Source: Capsicum annuum (taxonomy: Eukaryota > Streptophyta > Magnoliopsida > Solanales > Solanaceae). From it: a DNA stretch of 64,000 bases. Below the pieces are notes generated by a model, which did no database searches, was not told the DNA's origin, and worked only from the letters and a program-made list of their open reading frames with translations. Positions 16,307 to 63,385 of this stretch are shown piece after piece (within the stretch, counting starts at the first letter, position 1; each line of letters begins with the position of its first letter). Position numbers and translations under genes: made by a program. The stretch spans positions 97,772,810-97,836,809 of the forward strand of contig NC_061115.1 in NCBI RefSeq assembly GCF_002878395.1, in the 5' to 3' direction.

Positions 16307-16329
16307 AAAATAGCGAATTTCTGGTAGTG
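16307..16329 (-). repeat. CACTA terminal inverted repeat, right
   Basis: Ends TGGTAGTG. It pairs with 8343-8365 at 20 of 23 positions. Confidence 0.9.
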
Positions 16330-16332
16330 GAA
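16330..16332. other. Target-site duplication GAA, right copy
   Basis: Identical to 8340-8342 and directly abuts the TAGTG end. Confidence 0.92.
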
Positions 16333-17200: not shown

Positions 17201-17204
17201 GGAG

Positions 17205-17720
17205 TTGAACACTCGACTCACTATAGGCCCAGTTTTGACTCTACCAAATGGTTCAGATAAATTTGTGGTATATTGTGATGCTTCTAGGGTTGGTATGGGG
17301 TGTGTTTTGATTCAGAGAGGTAAAGTCATAGACTACGCCTCTAGACAGCTTAAGCCCCATGAAAAAAACTATCCAACTCATGATCTTGAGTTAGCAGCAG
17401 TAGTATTTTCCTTAAGGATTTAGAGGCACTATTTGTATGGAGTGCACGTTGATGTGTTCACTGACTATATGATCCTACAGTATGTATTCTCTCAGAAAGA
17501 CCTAAACCTCCATCAGAGAAGGTGGATGGAGTTGTTGAAGGACTATGACATGAGCATCCTATATCATCCGGGTAAAACCAATGTAGTAGCTGATGCTCTA
17601 AGTAGGATGTATATGGGTAGTGTTGCTTACGTGGATGATGGTAAGAAGAATTTAGCTCAGAAAGTTCTTCAGCTTGACCGACTAGGTGTCCGCTTAGTCA
17701 ATTTAGCAGAATGGGCGTAG
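17205..17720 (+). pseudogene. RNase H of G2
   Basis: Frames 17205-17423 and 17433-17720 are separated by one in-frame stop. They carry [79 protein letters not shown] and the closing TNVVADALSR. The order of Asp, Glu, Asp/His-type motifs matches gypsy RNase H. It is the best preserved domain in the window after the protease. Confidence 0.88.
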
Positions 17721-26280: not shown

Positions 26281-27140
26281 CCTCACTTGAATCTATTTTT
26301 ATAGCCTATAAATTTGATATTTTTCTATCGATTAGCTTGGTCTTCCTCCTGAGTGTGATATTGAGTTTATAATTTTTCTTGAGTCGACCACTAACCATTT
26401 CTAAGAAACCTTACCATTTGTCTCTTGTTGAGCTTAAGGAGATGAATTCTCAACTTCAGGATATTCTATGTAAAGGTTTCATTAGACAAAGTGTGTCACC
26501 TTGCAGTGCTCCTATCTTATTTATAAAGAAGAATGATGGCTCCTTACATATGTGTATTAACTACAGGCAGCTTAATAATATGCCCGTGAAGAATATGTAT
26601 CCTATGCCTCACATTGATGATTTATGTGACCAATATCATGGAGAAACAATGTTCTTTAAGGTTGACTTGAGGTTTGATTACCATCAGTTAAGGACATCCC
26701 AAAGATAGCCTTTAGGACTTGTTATCATCTTTATGAGTTCCTATTTCTTTCTTTCTTTAGGGTTGATAAATGACACAACAATATTTACGAATTTGATGAA
26801 CTTCGTGTTAAGGCCATGTTTGGATTCCTTCATGATTGTGTTCATTGGTGACATTCTTGTGTATTCGGGAAGTAGGTAGGAGCATATGCAATATTTGAGA
26901 ATTGTTCTCCAAAATTTTTGAGATCATATGCTTTTTGTCAAATTCTCAAAGTGTGAATTTTGGCTCGAGTTAGTGATATTCTGAGTATATATGGTGTCTA
27001 AGGATGGGATTATGGTGGACCCAACAAAGATAGAGGCTATTCGTGATTGGTAAAGGCCTACATCTCCATTTGAGGTTCACAACTTCATCGGTTGGATGGT
27101 TACTATAGGTGGTTCATTGAGGGTTTTGCTACTAATCCAA
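26280..27140 (+). pseudogene. Reverse transcriptase of G3
   Basis: The open frame 26379-26708 carries SLVELKEMNSQLQDILCKGF, SPCSAPILFIKKNDGSLHMC and INYRQLNN. The catalytic box FIGDILVYS at 26841-26867 replaces YIDD, so the first catalytic Asp is lost. The thumb region (KIEAIRDW) is readable near 27030-27055. Frame changes occur throughout. Confidence 0.82.
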
Positions 27141-27179
27141 CACCAATGAACAAATTAACTCGAAAGGAGGTTCCCTTCT

Positions 27180-27640
27180 AGTAGTCTAAGGAGTGTGAGT
27201 TGATCTTTCGAGGGCTGAAGGGATTTCTCACCTCAGCTCCTATATGGGCTCTTTCTGTTGAGGGTGAGGGATTCACTATATATTGTGATAATTCTAAAGT
27301 CTGTTTGGGTTGTGTTTTGATACAACAGGGTCAAGTTATTACTTATGAGTCTAGGCAGCTAAAAGTGCATGAGCATAACTACCTAACTTATGATTTTTAG
27401 TTGGCCGAGGTATTTTTGCCCTTAAGATTTTGAGGTATTATCTATTTGGTGTGCATTGTGAGATCTACACCAATCATTGTAGTCCTCAACAACTTATGAC
27501 CTAGAGAGCTTAATTCTAAATAACGTAGATAGTGGGAGTTGCTTAAAAACTATGATATCTCTATTCTATACCATAAGGGCAAATCAAACATTGTAGCAGA
27601 TGCCTTGAGCCGAAAGGCAGTGAGTATTTGTAGCTTGGTT
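27180..27640 (+). pseudogene. RNase H of G3
   Basis: The frame 27200-27400 shows [31 protein letters not shown] and [13 protein letters not shown]. After frame changes the stretch 27540-27630 reads LLKNYDISILYHKGKSNIVA and then DALSRKAVS, the normal end of the domain. Confidence 0.82.
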
Positions 27641-27649
27641 TCTATTTTA

Positions 27650-28924
27650 GTTTTTGAGATGTTGTTGGAGTGGGACATTTAGTCCTTAGCCAACATTATG
27701 GTGCGACAGGACATTTTCAACCCAAGAGGATTCTTACTAGGGTTTGAGAAGATTTGGAGTCATCAATTCAAAGATATAAGGCTTGGTATCATCCATTATC
27801 AGGTGTTGAGTGGTGAGACCACGGGGGATACCATACCTTCTGAGGGTCTTTTGAGATTTGATGGTTGTGATTGTGTTTCAAAGGTTGGAACTTGATTCAT
27901 TTGATACTGCATGATGCTCCAGCTTTAGCTATTGTATTCATTCTGGTAAAGCTAAGATGTATAAGGATTTGAGGCAGCTCTATTAATGGATCAGTATAAG
28001 AGAGATATGGAAGACTTTGTAGATCAATGCCTAAGTTGTCAGCAGGTGATGGCTGAACATCAGAGTCCCGATCAAGTGATTTAGAGATTACCCATTCTTG
28101 AGTAGGAGTGGGAGGGGATCACTATGGTTTTGTTAGTATCTTGCCTTTCACCTCTTGTGGTTCCGACTGTATTTGTGTTATTGTAGATCGATTGACCAGA
28201 TCAGCATATTTCATTCCTATTTAGATATGCTTCAGTGCAGAGAGGTTAGCCCGTTTCTATGTTCCTGAGATATTTTACCTATATGAAGTGCCTATATTTA
28301 TCATTTCAGACCGAGGCTCAGTGTTCACTTCTAGATCCTGGAGAGATTTTCAGGAGGAGTTAGATACTCAGGTAGATCTCTACATAGCTTTTCACCATCA
28401 AATCAATGGGTAGTCAAAGTGAACTATTCAGGTTTCAAGGATATTCTACGAGACTATGTTATAGATTTTGGAGGCTAGTGGGAGCACCTTTTGGCCTTGG
28501 TGTAGTTTACGTATAACAATAGCCACCATTAGAGTATCGAGATGGAACCATTTGACGCATTATATTGTAGGAATTGTTGATCTTCAATTGGATGGTTCTA
28601 GATCTCCTATATTAGACCCTGTGCTACTGACTTCCTTCAGGAGTCATGGGATAGAGTTAGAGTGATTTAAAATAGGCCGAGGGTCGCTCAGAGTAGACAA
28701 AAGGTTTATGCAAATCATATACTTCGTGCCTTTAGGTTTTGAGTTGGAAACCGAGTAATCCTTCGAGTATCACCCATGAAAGGTATGATGAGGTTGGGAG
28801 AAAGAGAAATCTCGTCCCAGGTATATTGTACCTTTTGATATCCTTCGTACAGTTGGAGAGGTGGCTTATAAGTTAGCCTTACTCCCAAATTTTTTTGTTG
28901 TTCATCTGGTGTTCTATCTTTCGA
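27650..28924 (+). pseudogene. Integrase of G3
   Basis: Frame-hopping matches include DFVDQCLSCQQV (zinc-binding end, about 28010-28045), TVFVLL.ID (first Asp region, about 28165-28190), ITMVLLVSCLSP and the C-terminal segment MKGMMRLGE with VHLVFYLS (about 28780-28924). Coding similarity stops abruptly at about 28925 and resumes near 30367 with WWHIPNESHVL. Confidence 0.72.
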
Positions 28925-30366
28925 TGTTATTTTCACAACGAAAAAATCAAGGGTCATCATGACACTTGTTGCGAAAAGCCTTGACAAGTAAGCCTATCTC
29001 CGAAATGAATATAAAATGAGAAAAATAATACCAAAACCCAATACCCACACCCACAACATGATTTTATACCAATATTAAATACTCAACCCAGTTTGAAGAA
29101 AGTTAAGTCATAACCTACCTACAATTTAGAAAACTTGTCCAAAAGCATTTACCATAAATATTTTTCCTCACGAACAGACCCAAAATCAATTAAAATGCAC
29201 AAATGTATAATCTACGGGTTAAAGGAAAATCAATGATAGCCATATTGCCCACTTTTGAGTTGGGGCCAAAATGAACCCTCGAAATGGGGTTTTGGAAAAG
29301 AAGGGTATAACCAAAATTATAGTACAAAAACATAATACCCATAGTTAAAGGAAATTTTAGATGAAAACCCAAGTGATAATGAGTTGGAATTGAGGTTTCA
29401 ATCAAAAAATTACAAATTTTAGTCCTTTCGAGCCTAAATTTCTCTATTCAACCTCTGAATTTCCGTTTTAAAAGGATTTAAATGAAAAGAATCAAAAAAT
29501 AATAATTAAAATATGTTTTTGGAGCCTACCCTAGTTTAAAAATAGAAGAAATCATCCAAAAACATGAAAAACCAAGCTCCAAGTAGTAAAAATGGTGAAA
29601 ATTATGAAAATAGGGAATTTAACACCGCTAAAGCTACCACCGGGTTGCTTAAGTGATCATCGCTTACGAACAAGTGACTCTTTACAAATACCTGCCTCAT
29701 CGCGTATGCGACATGACTATCACTTAAATAATAGACACCTAAGCAATGGGGGAGTCGAAATTAAGTGATACCCCCAACTGGATGCTAGGTCTTTTAAGAA
29801 ACTAAAAGGTCATCTAAGCGGGTACCCTATTTGGAGACTTGGAGAATTCCAAGTCTTTGTGGAACCCTTGATATTTATTTGAAGTACCGAGAATAAAAAT
29901 GAGCTATGTTATTAGACTAAATTTGATGCTCTAGACTCAATAGCGATATCAAATTTTAGGAAAAATGATGTTTACACAAAGTTGACCCAAAAAAACAAAA
30001 TTCACAACTTTTCAAACCAAGGGTCGAAATGAGATTCACAAATCATAAAATTACACAAAGCATGTTACTAACCTAAAATCGACGTTTCAGATCTACTAGC
30101 ATAGTTCGTTCTACCATACGATGTATAGATCAATAAGTGTGGATCAAAGTAAACTAATAGGCCTTTTTACCACCAAAAACCACAATCTCACAGGAATCAA
30201 AACTAAAAACTAAAAACTCAAACAAATTACATCACAAGGCATTGGAAACTATTCTAATCATCTTTCATACCCGAAAATACCACAAAGCAACCACGGGGAG
30301 GGGAAAATGGTCAAATCGCACAAAAATGAATAATTCAAAAAGCCCTAAAATTTATGTCCTTCCTGT
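28925..30366 (-). repeat. Solo LTR of the G1/G3 family, antisense inside G3 integrase
   Basis: About 1.44 kb interrupting the G3 integrase C-terminus. Read on the minus strand it contains the same sentence seen in the G1/G3 LTR (AATTCCAAGT-type stretch near 29860, then GGGTACCCGCTTAGATGACC). It ends TGTGAAAATAACA, in the style of a nightshade gypsy LTR terminus. Possible 5-base duplications are TGTTA (28925-28929) and TGTAG (30364-30368), an imperfect match, so the edges are good to a few bases only. No internal region accompanies it. Open frames 28715-28987 and 29190-29405 are not genes. Confidence 0.65.
29625..29830 (-). promoter_or_regulatory. CG-containing block of the solo LTR
   Basis: Words ACCGCTAAAGC, ATCATCGCTTACG and ATCGCGTATGCGAC (about 29632-29730) and AAGCGGG near 29817 stand out in AT-rich sequence. 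They lie at about the same distance from the LTR start as the blocks in the related LTRs. Confidence 0.35.
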
Positions 30367-30490
30367 AGTGGTGGCACATTCCTAATGAGTCTCATGTACT
30401 TAAGTAGGACTCAGCTCAACTGGATGAGAGATTGACCTTTGTGGAGGAGCTTATGTTCATACTAGCCAGGGATGTCAAGTAGTTGTACTC
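30367..30490 (+). pseudogene. Integrase tail of G3, resumed
   Basis: Reads WWHIPNESHVL, then QLDERLTFVEE and FILARDVK. This is the segment after integrase that normally follows VHLVFYLS directly. It ends where the minus-strand LTR begins at 30491. Confidence 0.7.
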
Positions 30491-32142
30491 TGTTGCACCC
30501 AAGTGTATATAAAAGTGTACGTGGTATCACTAAGTCATATAATGTCCTTTTGCAAGCCAAGTATCGATACCTAAGAGACTTGTGTTGATAACTACTCAAT
30601 TCTAGTCCACTATTGATATTAAATTAGTGCAGACGTAACCACGAGAGTTTGAGAGTTATAAGTAAAAGTAGAGTAAATAATGCGAAAAAATAAAGGTTGT
30701 TTGACAATAAATGGGGAGAAACCCAGGTTTAAGGCTCTATGAACAATAATACTTTGCTGTTGAACTTCATTAGTTAAGTTACTTATCTTGGTTGTTGATT
30801 CACGAGGTTGATATCACGACTATGGTCTTCCGAGCCTCTAATCACCTACATAACTTAGACCCACAAATACATCATGGAGCGAGGATGAGAGAACTAAATT
30901 AAATGCATTAATATTTCATCCCATAAGTGAACTAAAAAGGTCACTTAGGTATATTCCTATCCTAAGTACAAATTATAACTTCATTCTGTAGAAAATTACA
31001 ATCCTACTCTATTTAGCCCATATTCTATCCCCTTGTTCCTCCTCCCGGGCTCACAAAATGACAATGGATGTAGTATAAGGGTCCAAAATACTTAAAATAG
31101 TAATAACAAGGTTAAATGCACAACCAAATATTATAAATAATAAAAACCAAATAAATTCATAACAAGAGTAATTATGTTCTTGGCCTAAACCCCGGAAAAG
31201 GGCTTTTAGCCACTCATGGACATAACCTTAATTACGATAGATAAATACATGATAAAATCCATAAACAAACTAAAGTAAGGAAATAAAAAACCCTATTTAA
31301 ATTTTTATCTAGCCTCCCTCAAAGTTTCAAAGCCGTCCAAGGTGTTTTGCATTGTGTTCAAGTGTCCTATTTATAGGAGGACAAATATGGTCGAATTTGC
31401 ACTAGGTCCGTGTTGCGCCACTTATTCAATGGACTAGGGTATGCATCATGTCCTGATCATGGGTATAAACTTGAAATCATACTTAGGAAGTTTCCAAGTA
31501 CGTGGCACAGACCTTATAGCCTTTTCTATGGTCCGCAACGTGCCATAGGCTCCAAAGTGTCCATTTTCATTAAATCTTGCTCCTTTGCCTCAGTCTATCC
31601 ATTCCAAGCCTTGTGATGTTTTTAAAAATTGATTTTCAGCTTGTATATCATCTATATATAATCATAATTAAATCAAAAAGCATCCAATATCATCAAAAAA
31701 CACGAATTAGAGTTTAAAACAATACATAGTGCACAACGGTGAACTAGAAACTTTAGCTAAGAACTAGTTTTGCACTTTTGATCTTAAACTTAGGTTCGAC
31801 CCTTGGCTTGATTCAATTGAACCTTGAAAACTATAAACATGCTTTTACACACATAATTACACAATAATATCATTATGAACTCATAATTCAGACTAGAATT
31901 CATTGAGATCAACTAGAACAATATATAGCTCAAACTAGTTATACTAGTTTTCTCGATTAAACTCTAAGTGATCAATTTGAATCCAAACTTGTTTGAAAAA
32001 CACCTTAACCATTGTAATTAAGTAATTTAACACTTATATGATTATTTATACCATTCAGAAAATATCAAGAACAAAATAAGTACTCAAAATAAGGATAAAT
32101 AAGCTCGGATAACAACATTGACGTGCATAAATCCACCTCAGA
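30491..32142 (-). repeat. N1 3' LTR
   Basis: 1652 bp, homologous along its length to the N2 3' LTR (40697-42337, 1641 bp) in reverse. On the minus strand it ends CTTGGGTGCAACA at 30491 and starts near 32142. A TATA box CCTATAAATAGG is present at 31366-31377. The open frame 31410-31616 is not coding. Confidence 0.82.
31366..31377 (-). promoter_or_regulatory. TATA box in the N1 LTR
   Basis: CCTATAAATAGG on the minus strand, placed as in the N2 LTR (TATAAATA at 41449-41456). A CG-containing stretch (GTTGCGCCAC, GTCCGCAACGTGCC, about 31400-31550) lies directly upstream in transcription order. Confidence 0.6.
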
Positions 32143-33480
32143 TCATAACCCCATACTTAAAGCCTTGTTTGTCCATAAAAAACTCTTTACTCTAAGTATC
32201 ATAATCCTAGGATAATCCAAACTTCTACAATCAGCAATACACTCAAAATTACATTAGATGATGACACAAAATGCAAGTATCTACACTAAACATTTTATAC
32301 ATAATTGAAGGCTCAAAAATACTACTAAAAAAATCCTAACCTCAAGAATTGACTCACCAAGTTGGGAAAACTCATACATATTGTTCAATCAAGGAGATCA
32401 TACTAAGTACCCAAATCTTATCAAACATGTTCGCTCATAATAAGAGAGTTACCTATAATCACTAACATAAATGTAATTTATTGCAAATGGGGTACAAGAA
32501 TCAAATTACGCTCACTCTCACAAAGAATTCACAAGTTACATAAGATGAACCATATGCTTCCCCTTAGTGTAGTACTCCACTAATATCTAAATTTTATGAC
32601 TTAGGATCAAATAGGTCTTTAACGGTTGTAATGTTTGCTAAGGTTTGGGCAAAAACTATTTTTACCATTCATAGTGACTATCTTCCCTAAGCGCTTTAAT
32701 ACATTACACTTTTCATTCAATTAACTTCTAACGACCAACTTTCACCACTCTATCTACAAACACCTTTTGTTTTATCCCACATAATTAAGTTCACTCACAT
32801 AAAATATGGAAGGGAGTATTGTCTATTAATTCATGATGCAATTTTAGCACAAATTTTGTTCACTCATAACCACAACACATCACTTGTATGCAACAATAAC
32901 TATTACTTTGGGGCTTCAGTTAGACCTTTCTCCTACTTGAATTTCAAACTTATTAACTCAATTAATTTTACACTAAAGCGCTTAGGATCTTTGGATCAAC
33001 TCAAGGTCAGTCAAAAAAGGGAATTAGGCTACATTGAGGCTACTAAATAAACAAGCTAAAGACTTAATGGTTCTAACTAGGAATATGCACAATGGTAGGT
33101 TAAAAGGGTTATAAAACATGGCTACAAAGAAATGCCCATATTATCTCCTTAACCCACACTCTTTATTTTACTTTGCATACACACCAAACAAGTTCTACAA
33201 ATCACATGTAACAAGAAATATTCAAACACCTCACAAACTCATGGCATATGCTCAACTCAAGTAGGATCATCATAGATTCTCAACAAAACAATAACATGAA
33301 TTCAACATTAAGCCAACGTGTGACAAGAGTCATAATCATGAGCGTAGGAGTATCAAAAGAAGTCATTCACACAATCAACATGGCTTTTGTATTCAAAATA
33401 TCTTCCATCATACAATCACAAATAGCACCAACAAGAATATCTCACTTACCTAAAACAAAAATTTTAAATATTTACTCCTA
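32143..33480 (-). other. N1 non-coding 3' region
   Basis: AT-rich sequence between coding remnants and LTR, collinear in reverse with 39360-40690 of N2. It includes a purine-rich stretch just before the LTR (TTTAAGTATGGGGTTATGA on the minus strand) in the PPT position. Plus-strand frames 32856-33050 and 33248-33481 are shadows. Confidence 0.6.
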
Positions 33481-33759
33481 AATTAGAATTTCCCCACCCT
33501 ACACTTAAAAATCTACTTTTTCCCCAAAGTATAGAGATATAAATACTCTCTGAGGCCTCTAGAACTAACTAGTAGCATCTTTTTACATCAAAAGAATCCG
33601 GGGACCCCGCACTTAGTCTTCGCCATGCTCTTTAGCTTAGGTTTCCATACTTACACATCCCGTCAACCTGTGACTCAAAAAAAACTACCTTAAGTAAAAA
33701 CTAAAATATTGAAAATATAACCTACCTTAACTTGGGTTGATCCCAAGAAGCACCTAATT

Positions 33760-34400
33760 TAGTATCGTGGTATGACCCAATCATCACACTTAACCATTTT
33801 CCTTTACCCTCTTCCTTATACTCGGATGCTATCTTCTCACTCATTTCTGACCTCTTAAGTATGAACTCTCAAGGTCAACAACTTTTTCAACAATATCCTT
33901 TTCCGGATCCTCAATCAAAATCACTTTAGGATTAGCTATTTATGGTTTAGACAACTCAATGAGAGAGTCTGAAGATGGCTTTGGTGGATTAGGCTCTACC
34001 ACCCCACACTCATCCACTTCCACCACTATAATTATGCATAAAACTTTGTAGTGGGATAGTGTATTGAGTTGTTTGTATGCTTAAAAGACCACCACTTCTT
34101 CATCCAACCTTATTGATTAATGATCCTCCCATCTCCATGAATGGATGTCATAAGATGATTGGAACCCTTTCATATGCCTTATAATCCAAAACTATTAAAC
34201 CAGTAGGAGTAATAAACTTACTACCCTTGATGAGAACATCCTCAGTGATTTCTGTTGGACGGATTAATGATCGGTATGCTAAATGGAGTATTAAAGATCT
34301 TGGTCTCGGTGTCCCCAAGCCCAAAGTATTAAACATCAATGGGGGCATCAAATTAATACATGCCCCTAGTAACTCAGGGCGTGGACCACCTCATTATTTC
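33760..34400 (-). pseudogene. Protease of N1 and the joint that skips RT-integrase
   Basis: The minus-strand frame 34351-34148 reads MFNTLGLGTPRPRSLILHLA, then IRPTEITEDVLIKG and FITPTGLIVLDYKAYERVPI, the body of an Athila/Tat-type protease. Upstream, the catalytic loop is damaged (a stop and a frameshift around INLMPP at about 34340-34375). After VPIIL the reading continues in fragments (about 34130-33850) and then meets the post-integrase sentence at about 33750. Confidence 0.8.
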
Positions 34401-34499
34401 CAATATGTATGGCAAAAGTGAAAATCTAAGGATCCTTAAACATTTTGGGCATCTTCTGCATCACCATAGAGCTATACTCCTTCACCATGTCCTTCAAGT

Positions 34500-35445
34500 A
34501 CTTAGCATACATGGTCATTCCCTACAAAATATCTAAAAAAGAAAGGTTAATGTGAAGCACTCTAAAAATGTCAAAGAACTTCTTCAAGCAGGCATCCTCC
34601 TCTGCTTTTATTAGCCTCTGTTGAAATGGAGGTGGTGGATATACCTTAACCTGTTCAACAACTTTTATTTTTAAGTACTCAAACTATCCCAAATAATCAC
34701 CAACTTTGTCTGCAATCGATTGAGGTATCAACATTGTATATATCTCCTTATTTATCTTTGGAGGAATGTCAATCAACTTTTTACTCCTTACCCCTTAAAG
34801 TGATTGTAATTACTTTTTTAGGAGGTTTATTTTCACTTGGAAAACCATCATGAGGCCTGGCACTATATTTTTCCCAACTGGTACTCCAATTACTTCAAAA
34901 GTACTTGCTAATTTTTGAGTTCATCATCTATCTGTTCATGGGTATTGTCCATGAGCTTCTTTAACATAACTTCTATGCTACTAGCCTGTCTATTTTGTTG
35001 CTACTGAAGTTGATAATTACTGTTCCATGAATAGTTTAGTGCCTGAGTATGCCACTTTTGGTTGTAGTCATTACCATACTTTGGCCTTTGAGCGTTACCC
35101 ATAAAATTGATTGACTCGAGATTTACACTACACATATCTGCAGACTTGCCACTATTGCCACAAACCTTACACCATGATAGAGTTTGTTGCACTACATTCA
35201 CCTAAGTCTAAGACTGTTGTACACCCAACTTGATAAATAGTGTCATTATTAGGTTCTATAAAACTGATGTTGGGTGGATAATGTTGTAATATTATTATAT
35301 TTAATCATGTTTGCAGCCTTTTTTATTGAGTCTCTTGAGGAACACCATGCCAATAAGGATTTCCTTGTGCAATCCAGTTTAACAATATATATAGCTCATT
35401 ATAAGTATTTTCTAGATCCTGACAACCTACAGCTGATCTAGCAAA
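34500..35445 (-). pseudogene. Partial gag of N1
   Basis: The minus-strand reading from about 35440 includes ELYILLNWIAQGNPYWHGVP. Further on the frame 35201-35001 carries the zinc knuckle (CKVCGNSGKSADMC) and NPESI-type motif (NLESINFMGNAQRPKYGNDY). The same order occurs in N2 gag at 37370-37730. The N-terminal two thirds of gag are missing. Confidence 0.8.
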
Positions 35446-36514
35446 ATTTTCATGTTAATTTCCAAAAAGCCCATGCAATATGGATGCGTTGCAGACTGCT
35501 ATCTCTTGCAGTAAACTAGATGATGCAGACCTCTATCATGGGACTAATATCTATGATGAATACCTCTCTCCCAGAGACTGGACCAATATAACATGTTTCT
35601 TAGTCCACACATAACCAAAGTGCACTAATATAAATAAGATTTCGTCCCTTGTTTGTATTCACTTTTGGATGGACCTTGGACCACTTTGAAACTTGGAGTG
35701 GGGATGGAAAACACTTCAATTAGGGTTTTTCTTGTTTTACTTTAGATTTTTAATGGGTTTTATCTTGTATCCAATTATCTTGATTACAACTATGTCCATG
35801 AGTGGCTGAAAGCTCTATTACAGGGTTAAGGTCAAGAACATGATTACTATTGCTTTGAATTGATTTAGTTTTGATTGATTATCATATTTGGTTGCTCATT
35901 TATCCTTGTTATAACTATTTTAAGGAGTATCTACCCTTAGGATACATCCATTGTCGAATTTGTGAGCTTGGGAGGGGGAATAAGAAGATAGAATGTGAGG
36001 ATAGATAAAACACGGTTCTTATTCTTTTATAAAATAAGGAATTTGAATTAGTGTCTAGGATAGTGATATACCTAGAATCCTTGTTTTTTTCAAATGTAGG
36101 ATGATAGCTTCATGCATCCAATTGGATTATTACATCCCCGCTCAATAATGTAGTTGTAAAGTCAAAGTTAGTTAGATGATTAGAGATCGGGAGACCATGA
36201 TCATGCGATAAAACCTATGAATAATTAACCAAGATATGTAGTCTAACTAATGAAGTTCAATGGTGTAGTATGATTGTTCATAAGCCTTAACCCTGCGTCT
36301 CCATCCATTGATTGTCCAAAGTCATTACTTTTCCACATTAGTTACTTTACTTTTAGTTTACAACTCAAAAACTCTCTTGGTTACTTTATCTTAATAGTTG
36401 ATCTAGAATTGGATAAGTTGTCAACTCAAGTATCTGAGGGATTGATATTCATCTTTAATTAAGGCCACCGTATTACTTGGTGAGACCACGTACACTTGCG
36501 TGAGCACTTGGGCA
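35446..36514 (+). repeat. N2 5' LTR, left part missing
   Basis: Collinear with 41270-42330 of the 3' LTR. The first ~570 bp of the LTR are absent. A TATA box (TATAAATA) sits at 35629-35636, matching 41449-41456. Several differences between the two LTRs are C-to-T or G-to-A (for example GCGGC at 41408-41412 versus ATAAC at 35588-35592). The open frame 36274-36462 is not a gene. Confidence 0.82.
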
Positions 36515-36528
36515 GTTGTTGCTGGGGA
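36511..36528 (+). other. Primer binding site of N2
   Basis: GGCAGTTGTTGCTGGGGA resembles the TGGCGCCGTTGCCGGGGA site used by Athila/Tat-group elements. The LTR's last bases (GTGCAACA in the 3' copy) are lost or fused into it. Confidence 0.6.
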
Positions 36529-36849
36529 CTTATAATTTGGCAACTGTTTTATTTTTAGTTTTTAGATTTCTTTGGTACTTTACTCTTTTTTTTGGGATTT
36601 AATTTGTAGGACATAGGTTTATAGGCTAGAAAACTGTTAATGGTTAGGGAGTTAGTTGTACCAAGCCCCGAACCCGAGCAACGCTTCCATAAATTAAGGA
36701 GAAAAGCAATTCTTCTCCCTCATATCCTATAATTTCAAGAGAAACAAGACAATCCTGCTCTAATGGCTGAAGTTCAACCACCCTGCAGGATAATTCGTGA
36801 AGTGGCAATACCACTTTAGATAAATTTGACCTCCCTTTTTTATAAAACC

Positions 36850-37800
36850 AGCCACTGGAGGTAATTTTGAGCTGAAGCAGAATATGGTTCAGCTTTTGAT
36901 TAGAAGTGGACAATTTATCAGGCTTTCACATAAAGATCCACAAGACCATCTACATAACCTTCTGGAGATCATTGACACATTCATCCCAATGGGTATGACA
37001 ATGGATTATGTAGGCTGGCACTATTCCCCTTTTCACTAATAGGGGAAGCAAAGAAGTGGTTAAACGCTGAGCTGAAAAGTTCAATCAAAACATAGGATGA
37101 CTTAGCTCAAAATTATCCATCCAATTCTTTCCATCTGGCAAGACGGCAAAACTACAAAGTGAGATTTTGTGCTTTAAACAGAAGCCAGATAAGAATTTAT
37201 ATCATGCTTGGGAGCGCTTCAGAGATCTTTTTTGGGACTATCCATATCATCAGCAATCCAATAGCATATTAGCTCACACTTTTGTTGAGGCACGTGGCCA
37301 TAACACAAATATTTTGCTAGATTCAGCTACAGGTGGTTAAGCATTGGAGTTGAATTATAATGACCTTTATACTTTGTTGAACTGGATTGCTCAAAGGAAT
37401 CTTGAATGCTTTTTTACCTTAAGAAGCATGACAAAGAAGGTTGCAGGTGTATTACAGGTTGACCAATTGACTTCTATATCTACCCATATTGCTTCTCTGC
37501 AAAATAAGAAAAGCAGTATGAAGTTAGGGGTTACATAGCTTGCAGCCACAGTCAATGCAATTGAACAGACTGCAGGTTGGTATAAGGTTTGTGGTAACAA
37601 TAGGTATTCAGCGTCTATGTGTGCTACAAATCCTGAGTCTATGAAATTTATGGGTAATGTTCAAAGAATGAATTATGCGAATTCCTACAATCAAAAGTGG
37701 CAGACTCAGCCACTAAATACTTGATGGAACAATCAGCAACAGTATCGGTAACAACAAGTTCAGAATAATTAGTGCACAACTCAGACTAGCAATGTGTAAG
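36850..37800 (+). pseudogene. gag of N2
   Basis: Fragments in order: FELKQNMVQLL and SGQFIRLSHKDPQDHLHNLL (about 36860-36960), FIPMGMTMDYV, LGEAKKWLNAEL-like segment near 37040-37075, LARRQNYKVRFCALNR-like segment near 37140, WERFRDLFWDYPYHQQSN near 37210-37260, then ELNYNDLYTLLNWIAQRN. The zinc knuckle region (VCGNNRYSASMCATNPESMK) follows at about 37585-37650. This is Athila-type gag with about a dozen stops and frame changes. The minus-strand frames at 36644-36913 and 37391-37600 are shadows. Confidence 0.85.
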
Positions 37801-38389
37801 AGATATTAAAGCAAATTATGGCTACTTAAGTCTAATTGGCAGCAGATATAAAGAGCTAGCATGCAGCTTAGAGTTTCAAATTGGTTAGTTCACAAAGTCA
37901 CAAAATATCAGGCCTCAAGGTGGTTTGCCAAGTCATACTAAAAATTCTAAACAAGTAATGGACATCACTTTGAGGATTGGTAAAAATCTTAATGAAGGAC
38001 CTCTAAATAAAACCAAAGAGATAAATACAGAAGAGGCTCCTAAGTAGGTAGATGAAAAAGCTACTAAAAAATTATGAAAGTCTGAGTACTCAAAAACAAA
38101 ATTTATTCAAAGGTGAATGAGAGACCACCATTACCTTTCCCACAGAAGCATATAAAGGAAAATGAGAATTCATGCTTCAAAAAGTTCATTAACACATTTA
38201 GAAAGCTTCATATTAACCTTACTCTTTTATATGTTTTGGAGGGAATGCCCAATTATACTAAGTACTTGAAGGATGTGGTCACTAAAAAGTTAAGCTGCAG
38301 GATGTTGAGATAGTAGAACTTATTGAGGAGTGTAGTTCTATGGTGATGCATAGAATGCCCTAAAAGCTTAAGGACCCTGGGAATTTTAC

Positions 38390-38690
38390 TTTCCTAATTC
38401 AAATTGGTAACAGCGAGGTGGTCTATGCACTAAGTGATTTGGGGGGTAAGTATCAAATTGATGCCCCTCTCCTTGTTTAATACCTTAGGCCTGGGAAAGC
38501 CTAGACCAAGTACTGTGATACTTCAATTGGCAAACCGAACCATAGCCCATCCCGAAGGGATCATCCTATTGATTTAATTATTTTAGATTTTAGGCAGACA
38601 AAAGAGTACCATTTTTCTTGGGAAATCTATTTTTAGTAACAAGAGGAGATCTTATAGATGTGAGAAAAGGAACGCTCTCAATGAGGCTGG
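38390..38690 (+). pseudogene. Aspartic protease of N2
   Basis: Reads GNSEVVYALSDLGG (catalytic D-L-G loop, about 38408-38448), and then FLGNLFLVTRGDLIDVRKGT and MRLDDEVAMFKIYK in the frame 38618-38908. The middle is frame-shifted. The C-terminal extension carries on for about 80 codons (to VESVPQNTSSDFLIEQS...) and corresponds to the N1 tail, including a conserved acidic sentence. Confidence 0.8.
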
Positions 38691-38999
38691 ATGATGAAGT
38701 GGCGATGTTCAAAATATACAAGCCTCTCAACAAACTATCCTACTACAAAGATTTGTGCATGATTACATTAATTGAATGGGGTGAGTGTGTGGTAGTGGAG
38801 TCTGTCCCACAAAATACCTCTTCGGACTTCCTTATTGAGCAGTCCAAACCTACAATACCTCAGCCCGACATGATGGAAATTGATGATCATGAAAGGTATA
38901 AAGTTTAGAATGTTTTTGACCTTTAGAGTTCACACTCAAGAGGTCATAAATGAATAAGAAGACGGTGTCCTAATGTGAGGAAAAAAATGAACAAAAATG

Positions 39000-40675
39000 G
39001 ATAAGTGTAGATTGTGTCGTGTTGCACCACTAAATCAGGTGCTTCTTGGTAGGAAACCAAGTAAGGGTAGTTTTATTTTTAGTATTTTTAGTTTTTTTAC
39101 TTCACTAGTTTTGGTTCTTGTTGAGTCATATTGAGTCACAGGTTTATGGGAAGACTGAGTACCGAAAAACCTAAGCTAAGGAGAACGGCAAAGACTAAGT
39201 GTTAGGTCTTCAGACCCCTTGATATGTAAAGATGTTGTTAGTAGTCCTAGATGCCTGAGGTAGTATTTCTATCTATACCATTTAAAGTATACTTTGGGGA
39301 TAAAGTAGATTTTAAAGTGTGGGGTGGGGAAATTCTCATTTTTTAGGAGTACTTTAAAATTTTTTGTGTTAGGAATAAGTGTGCGATGTTCTTGTTAGTT
39401 CTATATTTGACTACATGATGCAAGTGTGTTGGTTGTAAAAGCATGTTGATTGTGTGAACTACTACTTTTGAAATTGGAGGGCTCATCAGTACGACTCATG
39501 TACTTGTTGGCTTAAAGTTGAATTTATGTGATTGTTTAGGTAAGAGTCTATCATGATCCTACTTGATTTGAGAATGCTTCATGAGTGTGTGAGTTATTTG
39601 TATATTCCTTGTTGCATGTGATGTCTAGAACTTGCCTGGTGTGTGTGCAGAATAAAATAAAGAATATGGGTTTAGGAGATGATATAGGAATTTCTTTACT
39701 AGCCTTGTTTCATACTCTCTTTTACCTACCCTTGGGCATAATCCTAGTTGAACCCTGCTGATCCTTTAGCTTTTTCTTTAGAAGCCTCATATGTAACCCA
39801 ATCCCTTCTATGATAGGCCTAAATTTGATCCAAAAGCTCCTAAGCTCTTTACTATAAAATTAATTGAGTTTAAGGAGTTGGAAATTCAAAAAGTAAAGGT
39901 GAAATTGAAGCCCCTAGTAATCGCTATTGGTGTTTAGAAAAATGATGTGTGTTGTGGTTGGGAGTGGAGTAATTAAAAGAATAAAAATGTGTTCAAATTG
40001 ATAAGTTAGGCATAGAAAATACTCTCACCATAGTGCATGTGAGTGAGCTTAATGAGATAGGGAAAAATAAAGTATAAGGGTAGATAGAAGTGGTGTAATT
40101 AGGTTATTAAAGGTGAGCTAAATGACATGTGTGATGTATTAAAGCACTTAGGGAAGATAGGTACTATTCTTCGCCAAAATAGTTCTTACCCGTCCCTTAG
40201 CCTGCATTACAACCATTAAAGACCTATTTGATCTTAAGCTTCAATATTTTGATATTAGTTGAGTACTACTATGAGGGAAAGCCTAAGGTTCATTATTTGT
40301 AACGTGAATTCTTTGTGAGAGTGAGCACAATTTGATTTTTTTACCCATTCTGTTATGGATTGAATGATTGTGAGTGATTATGGGTAACACTCTTGTTGTA
40401 GGGGAACATGTTTGATAAATTTTGGGTGAATTATATGATGTATTTAATTTAACAATGTGATTGATTTAGCTAACTAGGTGAGTCAATTCTTCAGTCTAGG
40501 ATGTTTTGAAGTAGTATTCTTGAACTGTCAATTGTGTATGTAAGATGCTTAGTATAGAAACTTGTATTTTGTGTTGTCATTGTAGTACTAGATTGACTGT
40601 CTTGCGTGTAGTAGAGTTTTAGAGTATCCTCTTCTTATGATGCTTAGATTAAAGAGTTGTTCGAGGATGAACAAG
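39000..40675 (+). other. N2 non-coding 3' region
   Basis: Starts with the post-integrase sentence (AGGTGCTTCTTGGTAGGAAACC, 39033-39054) and runs through AT-rich sequence collinear with N1. I see no coding content. Confidence 0.6.
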
Positions 40676-40696
40676 GCTTTAAGTGTGAGGTGGTGA
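40676..40696 (+). other. Polypurine tract of N2
   Basis: AAGTGTGAGGTGGTGA directly before the LTR start at 40697. N1 has AAGTATGGGGTTATGA in the same place. Confidence 0.6.
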
Positions 40697-42337
40697 TGTT
40701 GGGTGTATTTATGCATTTTAGTATTGTTATCCTAGCTTATTTATCCTTTTTTTAGGGAAATTCATTTTCTTTATGTGTTAATGATGATATAATTGAGAAT
40801 CTAAGTGTTTAAGTATGTGATTACTATGTTTAAAGGTGTTTTAAACATGTTTGGGTTCAAATTGATCACTTAGAGTCTAGATGAGAAAAATAGTTTTACT
40901 AGCTTGAGCTAGGTGTTGTTCTAGTCTATCGAGATGGATTCTAATGTTTTTAATAATTTAATAATGGTTTTATTGTGTAATTATTTGTTTAAATTTTTTT
41001 TATAATGTTCAAAGTGTAATTGAATTAAGCTAAGAGTCAAAACATGAAGTAAAGATCAATATGGGTAAGCCAAATCTTAGCTCGAGTTTCTAGTTCAACG
41101 TTTTTGATATCGTGTTGTTTTGAGTTCTTATATTTTGGTTTTGATCATGAGGATGCTTTTTTTATTAATTATGGTGATATATGGATGAAATTCAATCTGT
41201 AAAATAAAGAAAAATAACACCATAAGGTTGGGATGGAAAGAGAAAGGGTTAAGACAAAGTTAACTTGGAAAATGCAATTTCCAGAGAGCCCACGTGATAT
41301 GGATGCATCAAAGATCTCTCTCCCTTGCAGCAAGATAGGAGAGGCGGAAATATTTCCATTCGAATAATCTCCCCAATGCACATCTCTCTCCAATAGGCTG
41401 GACCAATGCGGCATGTTTCTTAGTCCACACATGGCCGAAGTGCACTACTATAAATAGGATTCCTTCCCTTGTTTGTATTCACTTTTGGACGGACCTTGGA
41501 CGGCTTTGAAAATTGGAGAAGGGATGTAAAAAACTTCTATTAGGGTTTTTATTCTTTTACTTTAGATTTTAAATGGATTTTATCTTGTATTCAATTGTCT
41601 TGATTACGGCTATGTCCATGAGTGGCTAAAAGCCCTATTCCGGGGTTAAGGCCAAGAACATGATTACTATTGCTTTGAATTGATTTGGTTTTTATTGTTT
41701 GTCATATGTAGTTGTTTATTTATACTTGTTTTAACTATTTTAAGGATTATCTACCCTTAGTATACATCAATTGTCATCACTGTGAGCTCGGGAGGAGAAA
41801 TAAGAAGATAGAACATGGGGATAGATAGAACATAGTTCTTATTCTTTTATAAAATAAGGAATTTGAATTAGCGACTAGGATAGGGATATACCTAGAAGCC
41901 TTGTTTATTTCATATGTAGGATGATATCTTCATGCATATAATTGGATTATTACATCCCCTTTCAATGATGTGGTTGAAATGTTCAAGTTAGGTAGACGAT
42001 TAGAGGTCGAGAGACCATGATCATGCGATAAACACTACGAATCATTAACCAAGCTATGTAGACTAACTAATGAAGTTCAATGGCTTAGTATGATTGTTCG
42101 TAAGCCTTAACCCTGGTTCTTTATCTATTTATTGTCCAAAGTCTTTACTTTTCCGAATTAGTTAATTTACTTTTAGTTTACAACTCTAAAACTCCGTTGG
42201 TTACTTTATCTCAGTAGTTGAACTAGAATTGGATAAGTTGTCAATATAAGTCTCTGAGGGATCGATGTTCGACTTTAATTAAGGACATTGTATTACTTGG
42301 TGAGACCACGTACACTTGCCTGCGCTTGGGTGCAACA
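40697..42337 (+). repeat. N2 3' LTR
   Basis: 1641 bp, beginning TGTTGGGTG and ending GGGTGCAACA. TATA box TATAAATA at 41449-41456. It is the most complete LTR of the N family in the window. The open frame 41169-41432 on the other strand is not coding. Confidence 0.88.
41449..41456 (+). promoter_or_regulatory. TATA box in the N2 3' LTR
   Basis: TATAAATA followed by GG, about 750 bp from the LTR start. It is conserved in position in three N-family LTRs. Confidence 0.6.
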
Positions 42338-43796
42338 ATATTCTCATTCAAAACATGAGCCATGAAACCTGAATCACCGAAGGCAAAAGGAAGTAAGTTT
42401 TGTACTCCAAGTCTACGGTTTCAAGGTAGCCTAAATGTTCCAACTAACCCAGGTCTTGAAATTCACCACTCCAACACCTAAAAACCCATCACAAATCTAA
42501 CACAATATCATGAAAATACTATGAACTAGCTCAATCTATAAGGAAGGTAAGCCTAGCCTACCTAGGCTCCTAAGAAATCTCAAACGATCTGCTAAATCAC
42601 CAACTTTTCCCTTTTGATAAGCTTCCACTATATTCCACTCTATTAAAATCATATTCTACTCATCATTACAATAATAATGATACCCACATTGCACCATTGT
42701 TTGTCGAGTCCAAAAGTCAAACCAAAACCCTATGTGTGTTCCATTAATAGAAATCACGTTTGCAAGGTCTACCCTATATTTCCTCATGCTGAAGTAGCAA
42801 TTACCCTAAGAAATGAGTGAAATCCGAGCATCACTGTTAAATTTAAGACCGCAAGTTTTAGGAATTTTGGACAAGAAAAGAGAAAACCAAAATGAAATTA
42901 CAGGAATCTTACCTCAAATCAAAAGAAGAATCAATAAGTAAGCATTAATCAAGCTTCCCAAATACACTACAATATTAAACCCTAAGCTATTGTACTCTTC
43001 AAGTATGTAGATCTCTTAGAAAAGATGAAGAATGGGGAGAAAATGGGCTAAAAGGGTCATTTTAGAGATCTCTTGAAATTGATGAAGAATGGGGAAAATG
43101 GGCTATGACGGGCATTTTATACCCATCCAAGGTGTTCGGATATCGCTATAACGGCTCGGCACCTCGCAATCACGGCTTCTGGGGACTATCATGCTATGTT
43201 CACAACTTGTGCCCGTTATCGTGGAACATGATATACTACTAAGGGTATCGCGATAGAGACACCTGGCTCACTATTAGCGAGTGCACCAGATACAGTTAAG
43301 ACTTGGAATTATCCAAGACTCCGCCAACCCTTCGAGATTCATTCAAAATAGGTTATATGCAAGTGGACCATGCAACTATACCAAATTCTATGTTTCGAAC
43401 TCTATGGTGTAGTTAAAATTTTAATCCAGGGTCATTTCAACAAAAAGTAGGTACCCCAACTATACTCTATTTTCTTAACTTTTTGATAAATAGTTCAAAA
43501 TGAACCCAGGTGCCTCAACACCTAAACTAAGATTCCTCTTAGCCAAAATTGATATTTTGGAGATGCTGGAATAGCTAGAATTTGCATACGAGATTGTTTG
43601 AATGAAGTTTTTGCTTGGTAACTAGTTAGAACCAGTGAAGATTTCAAAATAGGGAATTGTCTCTAAAAAACAAATGAGCTTCTCAATAATTGAATTGTCA
43701 GTTATAACTTGTTATAAATGACTTGGGATAAAAATAGAAAAGATCTAATGGCAGAAATAAGCAAAATGATGCAAAATAACCTAAAGGGTGATTACA
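42338..43796 (-). repeat. Partial 3' LTR of minus-strand gypsy G4
   Basis: On the minus strand it starts TGTAATCACCC at 43796 and is homologous to the G1/G3 LTR. It is cut at 42338 by the end of N2. It contains a CG-rich block at 43137-43275 and a TATA box (TATAAAAT on the minus strand at 43114-43121). Confidence 0.75.
43137..43275 (-). promoter_or_regulatory. CG-rich block of the G4 LTR with TATA box
   Basis: ATATCGCTATAACGG, ACCTCGCAATCACGG, GTTATCGTGG and TATCGCGATA (about 43246-43255, palindromic) lie within 140 bp. The TATA box begins 16 bp beyond the block in transcription order, the clearest promoter-like arrangement in the window. Confidence 0.5.
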
Positions 43797-44901
43797 ATAT
43801 CCACTACTAAAAGGGACATTCGTTCTTCAAAGTTAAGAATTAGGATGTACCTGAAGTCTCGAACATGTGGGGATACTGGGTCTACATCTCACTTTCAATC
43901 TCGTAAGTGAACTCCTTAACTAGGTGATGCCTCCTCTGAACCTGAACTACATGAAACTCCCTATTGTATAACTACCTAACATCACTAGCAAAAATGATAA
44001 CAGCCTCCTCCACAAAGTTCAACCACTCATCCAATTGTACTGAATCCCATCTAAGTACATAAGATTGATTAGAAATATATCATCATAACATGGAGACATA
44101 GAAAATAAGATGGATATAAGGAATATTTGAGATACGGCTAACTCATAAGACACTTCACCAATGGTACAAAAAATTTGAAAGGTCTAATATATCTGGGGCT
44201 GAGCGTTCCTTTCCTCTCGAACCTCATACACCCTTCATGGGCAATATACAGAGAAACACCCGATCACCAACACCAAATATTAAGGTATGAAGAATACGAT
44301 CTGCATAGGCCTTCTTCCTACTCTGAGATGCTCTCCACTTATCTTGAATTACTTTAACTCTATCTAACAACTCCTAAAGTAAATCAATACCACGGGGTCT
44401 AATCTTGGATATTTCAAACCATCCAATAGGGGAATGACATCACCTGCTATATAAAGACTTAAAAGGTGCCATCTCAATACTTGAATAATACCTATTATTA
44501 TATGCAAACTCTTCCAAGGCTAAGTATTTCTCCCACTAGCCTCCGAAATCCATAATAAAGGCTCAAAGCACATCCTCAAGAACCTAAATAGTTCACTTCG
44601 ACTGATCATCTATCTACGAATGAAAGCCTATACTAAGGTCCACTTGAGTACCCAACTTCTTCTAAAATTTTTTCTAAAATCTAGAAGTAAATATGGAACC
44701 CCGATCTGAAATAAAAGAGATGGGCATGCCATACAAACAAACTATCTCTAGAACATAGATACGAGCTAAGCTCCCAGCACTAAAGGATATCTAAATAGGA
44801 ATGAAATATGCTCACTTGTTCAACCCATCCACAACGACTTAAATACTATTTTAACCATAGGAAGTACGTGGTAAACCACAAATAAAGTCCATGGTAATTA
44901 A
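43797..44901 (-). pseudogene. Integrase of G4, C-terminal two thirds
   Basis: The minus-strand reading from 44893 gives MDFICGLPRTSYG, VVVDGLNK.AYFIPI (first Asp), VCLYGMPISFISDRGSIFTS (second Asp), FHS.IDDQSK and LEDVL (Glu region), EEFAYNNRYYSSIEMAPF and GWFEI. After these come a C-terminal KRKGTLSPRYIRPFK and the tail before the LTR. There are about ten stops. It is cut at 44901 by element N3, so the zinc-binding part and the rest of pol lie beyond that nest. Confidence 0.85.
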
Positions 44902-46347
44902 TTAGTGGTAAATTTACTAGTCATTTATGCCCAAATGTATGCATGCTACTATGATTTAATAGTATAAATAAGACAACTTTGGTAATTGAATGTACTAATT
45001 CTAATATTTTATAGGTATATAGGTAATGAGATAAAAAGAAGTAAAGTGAGCTAAAAATGATCAAAAAGGGAAAGTAAGTGCAAAAGCTTGAAAAGCAAGA
45101 GTAGGATCTGACCTCAGTTACCATGATCGCGGGCAGTCAAGATTAATCAGAGCCTTCAATTGGGAAGGACTCATTGCAATCGTGGGAGTCGGAATTACGA
45201 TCAAGGTGGGGAGATTGTGGTAGCACGGGTTTATGCCAAGGGGTAGATTTGAAATTTCAAAACCAACCCTAAATCCATTATAGTGCAAAAACCCTTTCTT
45301 TTTTGGGTACCTTCCCAACTAGAATTAAATTTTGAACAATTTGAAACCCTACAAAATTGGGAAACTATTTTGTGGCTAATTTCTCAAGTAGTTTTGATTG
45401 TAATTGAAGTTGGATATTGGATTACTCTTACTTTTAATTTCCATGGAAGCATTGAGTGATCCTTTTGGTATATTCCTTTCTTTTAACTTCATGAGTAAAT
45501 AAACATTTATTTTTAGATTATGTTGAAATAGGGTAAAAATATGTGTGGATTGTTATTTATTAGTGTAGATTCTTGGTTATTGATGATGGTTTCACTATGT
45601 CTTTATTTATTGAGTTCGGATTTCAGGGTGAAAACCCCAAATTCCCAAAATGGATTTGTGGGTGAAAACCCTAAATTTTCAAAATCTCATATCATCCTTT
45701 AATGAGGGATTTGAGTATACTTTTAGATCCTATATCATCCTTGAAAGAGGGATATGAGAGACAAGACATTAACAAAAAAAATCATTATGTACAACTTATT
45801 CCCATTTCATTATCTTAAAAATAAAAGTGGATTGAGAATAAGCTAAGTATTGGGCATCTTCCTAGATATAGGGATTCCCAATTAACGTATTGGGTGTTTT
45901 GGGTTGCCACATCCATGAGGTATCCAAAAAGGTCCATGGGTTATATTCTTGAGGTTTGGTTAACAAACTAGCCTGAGGAACCCCTAACCTAGGCTACCCA
46001 TGTAGTCATCAACTAGAATTTGCATTCTATTGTCATGAACCTATGCATTATTTGCACCTAGGAAGAAATAATCACAAGACGGCTCATATTAAAATCTTAG
46101 CCAAATTTGTTATTTTGAATTGGTAGTTTGATTTGATTTTGGTAAATTAACTTTCCAAAATAATTCCCCTATTTTAATTCATGTATTTTAATTTTTTACA
46201 TTATGGGTATATCTTTAAGCTATTAACACCCATATGATTAGAAGATGAATTCCACTCCTCTAGTATTAGACTCTAATTCACATTTGGTTAATATACTTGA
46301 CAACGATCACCTTGCCCATAAATTATGAAGTGAGTTAAGAGTTATCA
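44902..46347 (+). repeat. N3 5' LTR
   Basis: Aligned with 52875-53727: both continue GAGTGGTAAATTT (here TTAGTGG at the very start). Ends GTTATCA before the PBS. CG-rich block at 45118-45205. The LTR holds near-repeated sentences AAACCCCAAATTCCCAAAATGGATTTGTGG and AAACCCTAAATTTTCAAAATC. Frames 44921-45124 and 45118-45318 are not genes. Confidence 0.85.
45118..45205 (+). promoter_or_regulatory. CG-containing block of the N3 5' LTR
   Basis: ACCATGATCGCGGGC, GCAATCGTGGG, GTCGGAATTACGATCAAGG within about 90 bp. The 3' LTR has the related block at 53095-53200 (ATCACGACGG, CACGATCGCCG, TTACGATCATG). Confidence 0.4.
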
Positions 46348-46879: not shown

Positions 46880-47460
46880 TCTCACCATCCAAGATGTTGT
46901 AATTGCATGACAAAATCACTAATTTTGTCAATTGAATAAAGAACCTCTATATGAGGTATGGGAGAGATTTAATGGGAAGTTTATTCAATGTCCTAACAAT
47001 GATGTCCTGGAGAAGATGTTTCTCAAAATCTTCTACCGATCTTTGGATCAACTAACCCTAATCATAGTGGATAATGCGGCCAAGGGTTCACTTGTAAAGT
47101 TGTCTTATAATATGGCTATAAAATTGCTTGAGAAAGTCATAAAGCAAAATTATTAATGGCATACCAGAGACACCGAGGTAGATAAAGGGTCTCTAACACC
47201 TCTTATGCTAATAGAGATTAAAGGAAAAGAGATGAAGAGAGGGAGGAAAACATGCAAAAATGATGACATAATTAGAGTTGCTATAAAACATGTGATGGGT
47301 GCACACAGAAAATGGTAAATGTTGTAGCATCCAAGGGTTATGATGAAGAAGAGGCCAAAAGACTAGATGATGAAATTCGGTATTTAGCTAACTATCCAAT
47401 CGGTTTCTACCCAGAATATCAAAGGCAAGGTGGGAAACATGGTTAGACCAATCGTGAAAG
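46880..47460 (+). pseudogene. gag of N3
   Basis: The frame 46932-47156 reads LYEVWERFNGKFIQCPNNDV, then FYRSLDQLTLIIVDNAAKGS and YNMAIKLLEKVIKQNY. This is the C-terminal half of Athila-type gag (YEAWERFK...C-P-H..., ...VDAAAGG..., ..LLEE...NNYQW). Further on comes DEEEAKRLDDEIRYLANYPI near 47340-47400. The N-terminal half is not legible between the PBS and 46880. Confidence 0.75.
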
Positions 47461-52858: not shown

Positions 52859-52874
52859 AAGTTGGGGGTGTTTA
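52859..52874 (+). other. Polypurine tract of N3
   Basis: AAGTTGGGGGTGTTTA immediately before TGAGTGG, the start of the 3' LTR. Confidence 0.8.
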
Positions 52875-53727
52875 TGAGTGGTAAATTTATCGATCATTTA
52901 CGCTCAAATATATGCACACTACTATGACTTAACGGTATAAATGAGACAACTTTGGTATTTGAATGCACTAATTCCCATATTTTGCAGGTATACGACCGAT
53001 GAGATAAAAATAAGCAAAGTAAGCTAAAAATGATCAAAAAGGGAAAAAAAGTGCAAAAGTTGGAAAAGATGGAGCCGGATCTGGCCTCTATTACCACCAT
53101 TACAGTAAGTCAAGATTAGTCAAAGCCAGCTATCACGACGGATGCACCACGATCGCCGAAGTTACGATCATGATCAAGCTGGGGTGATCGTGGTAGCTCG
53201 GGTTTATGTTAAGGGGCAGATTTTTAATTTCATAAAATTAACCACAAATCCCTTATAGAGGAAAAACCCTTTCATTTTTGGGCATCTTCCTAACTAGTAT
53301 TGAATTTTTAACAATTTGAAACCCTACCAAATTAGGAAATTATTTTGTGGATAATTTCTCAAGTAGTTTTGGTTGTAATTGAAGTAAGATATTGGATTAC
53401 TCTTACTTTCAATTTCCATGAAAGCATTGAGTGATCCTTTTGGAATATTCCTTTCCTTAAACTTCATGAGTTGCTAAACATTTATCTTGGTATTATGTTG
53501 AAATATAGTGTAAATACGTGTGGGTTGTGATTTATTAGTGTATATTCTTGGTTATTGATGATGGGTTACACTAATTCTTGATTGATTGAGTTGGGAGTTC
53601 TGCATGAAGACCCCAAATTCCCAAAATGGATTTGTGGGTAAAAGCCCCAAATTTCCAAAAGCTTACATCAATTGTGAAAGAGAAATGTGAGTATACTTTT
53701 AGATACTATATCATCCTCAAAAGAGGG
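52875..53727 (+). repeat. N3 3' LTR, left 853 bp
   Basis: Collinear with the 5' LTR up to ATCATCCTCAAAAGAGGG (5' copy at about 45730). It is interrupted there by element G5. About 610 bp of LTR should continue beyond the G5 nest, outside this window. Confidence 0.82.
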
Positions 53728-63382: not shown

Positions 63383-63385
63383 GTT

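Follow-up and report, generated by a model that had tools for sequence, protein, structure and literature searches.

Two decayed gypsy elements in pepper point to a dispersed retrotransposon family that probably kept Gag and protease without a polymerase

The two elements and their coding content

The DNA considered here, referred to as the window, is a stretch of 64,000 nucleotides from Capsicum annuum (assembly GCF_002878395.1, contig NC_061115.1, positions 97,772,810 to 97,836,809 of the forward strand). Near its middle lie two facing long terminal repeat (LTR) retrotransposons of the gypsy type, N1 on the minus strand (30491..35457) and N2 on the plus strand (35457..42337), both of which carry remnants of gag and protease only. 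Very probably both are dead members of a single Athila-like Ty3/gypsy family that was old, dispersed and semi-autonomous; it kept an open reading frame (ORF) for Gag, protease and a tail, and it had lost reverse transcriptase (RT), ribonuclease H (RNase H) and integrase, or never had them, before the sampled copies diversified.

In N2 the first ~580 bp of the 5' LTR are missing; the truncated repeat extends from 35457 to about 36516. It is followed by a degenerate primer-binding site (PBS) at 36515..36532, where the genomic copy L014 reads TTTTTGGCGCCGTTGCTGGGGACTT, presumably of the tRNA-Asp type. What is left of a single reading frame that joins gag, protease and an acidic tail occupies 36763..39005 and ends at the joint (39003..39065), which consists of a stop codon and then a stretch reading like 'gcgctgcttgggaggcaacccaag' in the copies. 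A polypurine tract, GTGTGAGGTGG (40683-40693), stands directly before the 3' LTR, TGATGTTGGG...GGTGCAACA (about 40694-42337). The 5' and 3' LTRs of N2 are 84.9% identical over 1050 columns (Kimura two-parameter distance, K2P, 0.178).

N1 is collinear with N2 and lacks the 5' LTR, the PBS and the first part of gag. On the minus strand it comprises a 3' LTR (30491..32145), whose inner boundary is approximate and was set by alignment to N2 and which differs from the 3' LTR of N2 by 29.9%, the same joint as in N2 (33735..33790), and the remnant of the gag-protease frame with the acidic tail (33784..35457). The two elements align in two blocks: from the 3' LTR to the protease 30491-34481 pairs with 42337-38326 (70.6% over 4081 columns), and in gag 34484-35457 pairs with 38279-37301 (63.7% over 992 columns). 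The joint sits within the first block, where the alignment is unbroken, and the gap of ~46 bp in N2 between the blocks (38280-38325) falls at the gag-protease linker, away from the joint. Both elements lose homology at base 35457, which falls within gag in N1 and some 580 bp inside the 5' LTR in N2, and from the sequence we read the pair as two facing truncated copies joined at this breakpoint. An insertion of N2 into an intact N1 was also considered and rejected: self-comparison gave no remainder of N1 to the right of N2, and both elements are truncated at 35457.

Retrotrans_gag (PF03732) matches N2 at 37101..37287 (plus strand) below the cut-off (E 0.0011, 19.6 bits, cut-off 24.1), and the genomic copy L016 reaches 30.2 bits with the same family, above the curated cut-off. 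An aspartic protease remnant follows at 38360..38770 (plus strand). A DLGAS-type motif together with its flanks, which we take to be the Athila-like protease sentence, is present in N2, in N1 and in many genomic copies. RT, RNase H and integrase all went without a Pfam match, both in the three plus frames of N2 36601-41200 and in the three minus frames of N1 32145-35457; as a control of the method, a neighbouring decayed gypsy element gave RT and RNase H above the cut-off and integrase below it. Comparison of the stretch after the protease with a large protein collection yielded 42 candidates, none with E <= 1. ATHILA ORF-1 (PF03078) gave no match in the host genome, a result which is uninformative, as control genomes gave no match either. 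An earlier reading of the window from its letters alone (the sequence-only reading) had proposed that in N1 and N2 gag, protease and an acidic stretch lead directly to the sentence normally found after integrase, and this order is confirmed.

The family in the pepper genome

The host assembly searched comprises 3.21 Gb. With the joint region of N1 as query the best 40 of 9348 candidates were scored, giving 47 matches, N1 included. Twenty places with long matches spanning the joint were taken as 10-kb loci and are thus selected for crossing it. LTR pairs could be measured in 14 of the 20, six of them with partial or extended repeats. The eight fullest two-LTR copies (L009, L012, L013, L015, L017, L023, L025, L028) are 7.25-7.69 kb long, of which the interior takes up 3.98-4.39 kb; the comparison of internal lengths which the sequence-only reading had suggested thus gives similar interiors of ~4.2 kb. 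K2P between the LTRs of the 14 copies ranges from 0.12 to 0.194, and the LTR ages of these copies and of N2 come to ~4.6-7.5 million years at a rate of 1.3e-8, the value quoted for LTR dating in the available part of PMC9744471.

Besides LTR pairs the copies carry PBS- and polypurine-tract-like sequences. A strict primer-site pattern matched only 3 of 26 sequences; it was too strict, and its result was not used. Target duplications were scanned in 16 copies, with ends guessed for L011, L018 and L019, and an exact 5-bp duplication at plausible LTR ends was found in five (L012, L013, L015, L017, L021). The dispersed copies, the 14 LTR pairs and these duplications agree with the proposal of a mobile, multi-copy, non-autonomous family. 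L024 and L026 contain direct repeats of LTR plus gag of ~1.8 and 3.1 kb, and the sequence suggests tandem arrays of the family with shared LTRs.

A joint shared by dispersed copies

The 20 joint-spanning copies align with N1 and N2 through the joint without a break (22 sequences). Since the first query itself contained the joint, two further queries avoided it. One of them lies behind the joint (N2 39010-39900); the best 40 of 7701 candidates were scored and correspond to N2 and 39 others. For 34 of the 39 the 600 bp upstream were taken: 23 have protease and tail directly upstream of the joint (L041 over only 304 bp), and 11 have a segment of a second reduced form described below (L052 over only 189 bp). 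The other five are L010 and L011, already part of the 22-sequence alignment, and three with collinear protease matches. In total, gag-pro lies upstream in 28 of the 39, the second reduced form in 11 and pol in none.

The other query, a protein query comprising the gag C-terminus and protease of L010, lies before the joint. Here the best 150 of 31220 candidates were scored and 40 of these matches were followed, 34 of them at about every fourth rank (three such ranks, already in the collection, were left out) and six chosen for open frames. Thirty-nine of the 40 continue through the same joint. The exception, L096, runs into sequence unlike the family, without a Pfam match in three frames. Altogether 82 genomic copies (20 + 23 + 39) share the joint with N1 and N2, and pol was found at the joint in none of the 40 copies sampled with the pre-joint query and in none of the 39 sampled with the post-joint query. 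The sequence-only reading had named a majority of pol-bearing members, and joints that differ between N1 and N2, as outcomes that would refute it; neither was seen in the sampled copies.

Maintenance of the Gag-protease frame

In-frame stops are depleted along the frame that N1 and N2 have in common with the genomic copies. In the protease-tail alignment (22 sequences) stops make up 1.7% of the codons in the coding frame versus 9.1% and 11.0% in the other two, with the coding frame lowest in all 11 windows; the gag alignment (17 sequences) gives 2.5% versus 9.0% and 7.9%, and 25 of its 30 windows have their minimum in the coding frame; a second set of 23 further copies and N2 gives 2.2% versus 10.2% and 10.4%, with the minimum there in 8 of 9 windows. 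As stops per 60-column window also fluctuate by chance outside coding sequence (for example 0.2% in one phase past the joint), only a run of windows in one phase was counted as evidence. A shared ATG opens the frame in 14 of 17 sequences, and a shared stop at the joint closes it in 18 of 22, as well as in 21 of 24 of the second set including N2. When the gag alignment is read in 28 overlapping windows (N2 36813 to 38540), the third codon position is the most variable one in 22. In the protease-tail alignment its ratio reaches two to three within the protease core but is ~1.1-1.2 in the tail; past the joint the phase ratios are only 1.1-1.3.

Stop depletion and codon-phase patterns support the claim of the sequence-only reading that Gag and protease were kept as a protein gene. 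Judged from these patterns, selection probably still acted on the Gag-Pro frame once pol had gone, for as the copies share the joint, it is most simply placed later than that loss. The copies examined are decayed: in the gag and 5' protease part each of the 17 sequences counted has 9-23 in-frame stops.

A second reduced form

Four copies (L029-L032) have the LTR, the leader and the post-joint stretch as in the family, while their gag-pro region is cut down or has given way to a different segment. The same post-joint stretch with gag-pro reduced or replaced is found in L033, L038, L039, L050-L052, L054, L055, L059, L061 and L062. No Pfam match was obtained in L029 and L030. In 13 sequences of this form one frame has 1.6% stops versus 11.3% and 6.7% in the others and is lowest in 8 of 10 windows, but the third position leads in variability in only 4 of 10. 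A protein was thus likely, though not demonstrably, kept in the second reduced form.

Alternative explanations

That N1 and N2 lost pol separately by decay after insertion, with the shared joint a coincidence or a hot spot, might be considered because both are heavily decayed and old elements often lose internal parts. The joint is, however, the same base by base in 20 other copies; it is crossed by 39 of the 40 copies reached from the pre-joint side, and protease and tail stand directly upstream in 23 of the 34 followed from the post-joint side. Independent decay was therefore rejected on the shared joint in dispersed copies and has a negligible probability, in line with the sequence-only reading. 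Equally close to nil is the idea that the host had domesticated a gag-pro gene which then multiplied by ordinary duplication: the frame was apparently under selection, but in-frame stops interrupt every sequence counted, and the copies have LTR pairs, a PBS and a polypurine tract. N1 and N2 could also be the halves of a single inverted segmental duplication instead of two insertions, as the flank 28118-28930 matches 44898-44085 inverted (70.5%) and 30353-30488 matches 44100-43966 inverted (73.5%). The left-hand flank is, however, a gypsy pol remnant, and on the right-hand flank the integrase family rve matches weakly, below the cut-off (E 0.0017); since both flanks carry pol traces of the other gypsy element, the similarity may come from independent copies of it. 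Moreover, a protease tree, which has no support values, places N2 with L022 and N1 with L018, and the right flank of N2 (42338-43965) matches nothing beside N1 in the self-comparison. A duplication of this kind is quite unlikely. Also unlikely, though a little less so, is an origin of the selection signal in an unsampled pol-bearing master from which the pol-less copies, giving no protein themselves, got gag-pro by template switching. Template switching between partner families has been proposed for wheat elements (PMC11302176, available part); on the other side, none of the 40 sampled copies has this gag-pro followed by pol, and the stop-depleted frame includes the tail and closes with a shared stop directly at the joint.

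The reading as one old semi-autonomous family, which we hold with considerable confidence, has to be weighed against several observations that count against it. N1 and N2 are without 5' ends and so without a complete pair of insertion marks of their own, and the target duplication is absent in 10 of the 16 scanned copies, with a match in L014 that is chance-like. Only the best-scoring candidates of each search were scored (40 of 9348, 40 of 7701 and 150 of 31220), so that pol-bearing members could be missed; within the same limits no autonomous pol-bearing partner was found, which leaves trans-mobilisation unproven. Asp_protease_2 reached only 15.2 and 14.5 bits (cut-off 24.3), as full-domain matches in two of six pieces, and a profile search of solved structures with the protease pieces gave a single chance match (E 0.94); because of these sub-threshold and chance matches the protease call rests on motif and order. 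An in-frame TGA ~17 codons before the shared stop occurs in 12 of 22 sequences and is read as CGA-to-TGA decay, since other copies have CGA at that position. The third position is highest in only 8 of the 15 overlapping windows into which the protease-tail alignment was divided, and for the second set this holds in only 4 of 9, an unevenness that owes partly to alignment gaps. Finally, an exchange of gag-pro with pol-bearing relatives could give the same signal of selection.

If the single-family reading is right, RT, RNase H and integrase would have been lost, or would never have been present, before the sampled copies diversified, and a single ORF would have been retained that encodes Gag and protease and ends in a short acidic tail. 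The Gag-Pro of the family may have been supplied to shared particles. Gag particles would have taken up the RNA of the element, and the enzymes of another element would have copied it from a tRNA primer into DNA and inserted it. We infer that the polymerase was borrowed in this way; RT and integrase would have come from an autonomous element whose tRNA primer and LTR ends were the same, and the second form, with gag-pro reduced or replaced, would have shared the LTR and the 3' stretch.

Surroundings of the elements in the window

A decayed gypsy pol on the plus strand at 26300-28950 includes RT, RNase H, a weak integrase and an SH3_Tf2-1 domain, and we take this element to be of the chromovirus type. 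Around N1 and N2 the flanks 28118-30488 and 43966-44898 show inverted similarity. Three pairs of LTR-like direct repeats lie further out: 3858-6367 and 19532-22041 (86% identity, 15.7 kb apart), which enclose remnants of RT, of RNase H and of the integrase zinc-binding domain at 16228-18950, 44898-45751 and 52871-53727 (82%), and 58018-58622 and 63383-63976 (84%). Rfam and tRNA scans of the window found one snoRNA, outside N1 and N2, and no tRNA; it is snoR71 (RF00097) on the minus strand at 46901-47005, with 43.1 bits (gathering score 40), in a repeat-rich stretch.

Relation to known systems

The tRNA-Asp-type PBS and the protease sentence of the family presumably resemble those of Athila; as RT, RNase H and integrase are absent, a place in the Athila lineage is not demonstrable by RT. 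Large retrotransposon derivatives (LARDs) have a large non-coding interior, whereas ~2.2 kb of the ~4.2-kb interior found here are a former reading frame. The plant TR-GAG elements likewise have two LTRs around one Gag-containing frame, and transposition of one of them, a Copia element, was seen in Arabidopsis ddm1 (PMC9784723 and PMC8704663, available parts). They are described there as GAG only; in contrast, the family treated here also keeps a protease motif and an acidic tail in the same frame as gag.

The closest counterparts are wheat elements. According to the available part of PMC9744471, RLG_WHAM and RLG_Sabrina_SA are 'semi-autonomous' gypsy elements with GAG and protease only and neither RT nor integrase, and they share with the pepper family this restricted coding content, a high copy number and, presumably, a tRNA-Asp-type PBS. 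The retention of protease, which the sequence-only reading had marked as the point to check, is thus upheld by motif and order but is not new. In addition, the companion variants of Sabrina in which gag-pro is replaced by short coding segments (same source) probably resemble the second reduced form. Differences exist as well: the wheat elements live in grasses and the family described here in a eudicot; a likely autonomous partner, RLG_Wilma/BAGY2, is named for wheat and none was identified in pepper; and an intact GAG-Pro frame is described for RLG_Sabrina_SA, whereas the pepper copies are old and decayed (PMC9744471, available part). RLG_Quinta, another wheat gypsy element without pol, is likewise thought to give Gag and to be mobilised by an autonomous partner, RLG_Cereba, but it encodes Gag with a domain of unknown function, is centromere-specific and has no protease named in the available part of the source (PMC11302176).

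The GAG-Pro-only cases found in the literature searched are from wheat. Titles and abstract openings on pepper, Solanaceae, gag-pro and semi-autonomous elements, a scope largely outside subscription journals, contain no report of this family. By analogy it adds to the known GAG-Pro-only kind and is a probable eudicot counterpart of the wheat elements. It is a more doubtful, tentative idea that the complete Wilma-Sabrina-WHAM arrangement has its counterpart here, in which one member would encode Gag-Pro only, a second one some other small protein from the stop-depleted frame that replaces its gag-pro, while RT and integrase would come from an autonomous element apart from both.

Significance

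How such systems arise is a question for which PMC9744471, in its available part, calls for surveys of other plant genomes. The pepper family indicates that a dispersed plant element can live on for long with Gag and protease kept and the polymerase lost, and that this loss was here not a one-off decay. Through the second form, which shares the LTR and the 3' stretch, the parallel with wheat becomes testable in a eudicot. If that parallel is true, such a division of labour would be either as old as the split between monocots and eudicots or would have arisen more than once among gypsy elements that use the same tRNA as primer.

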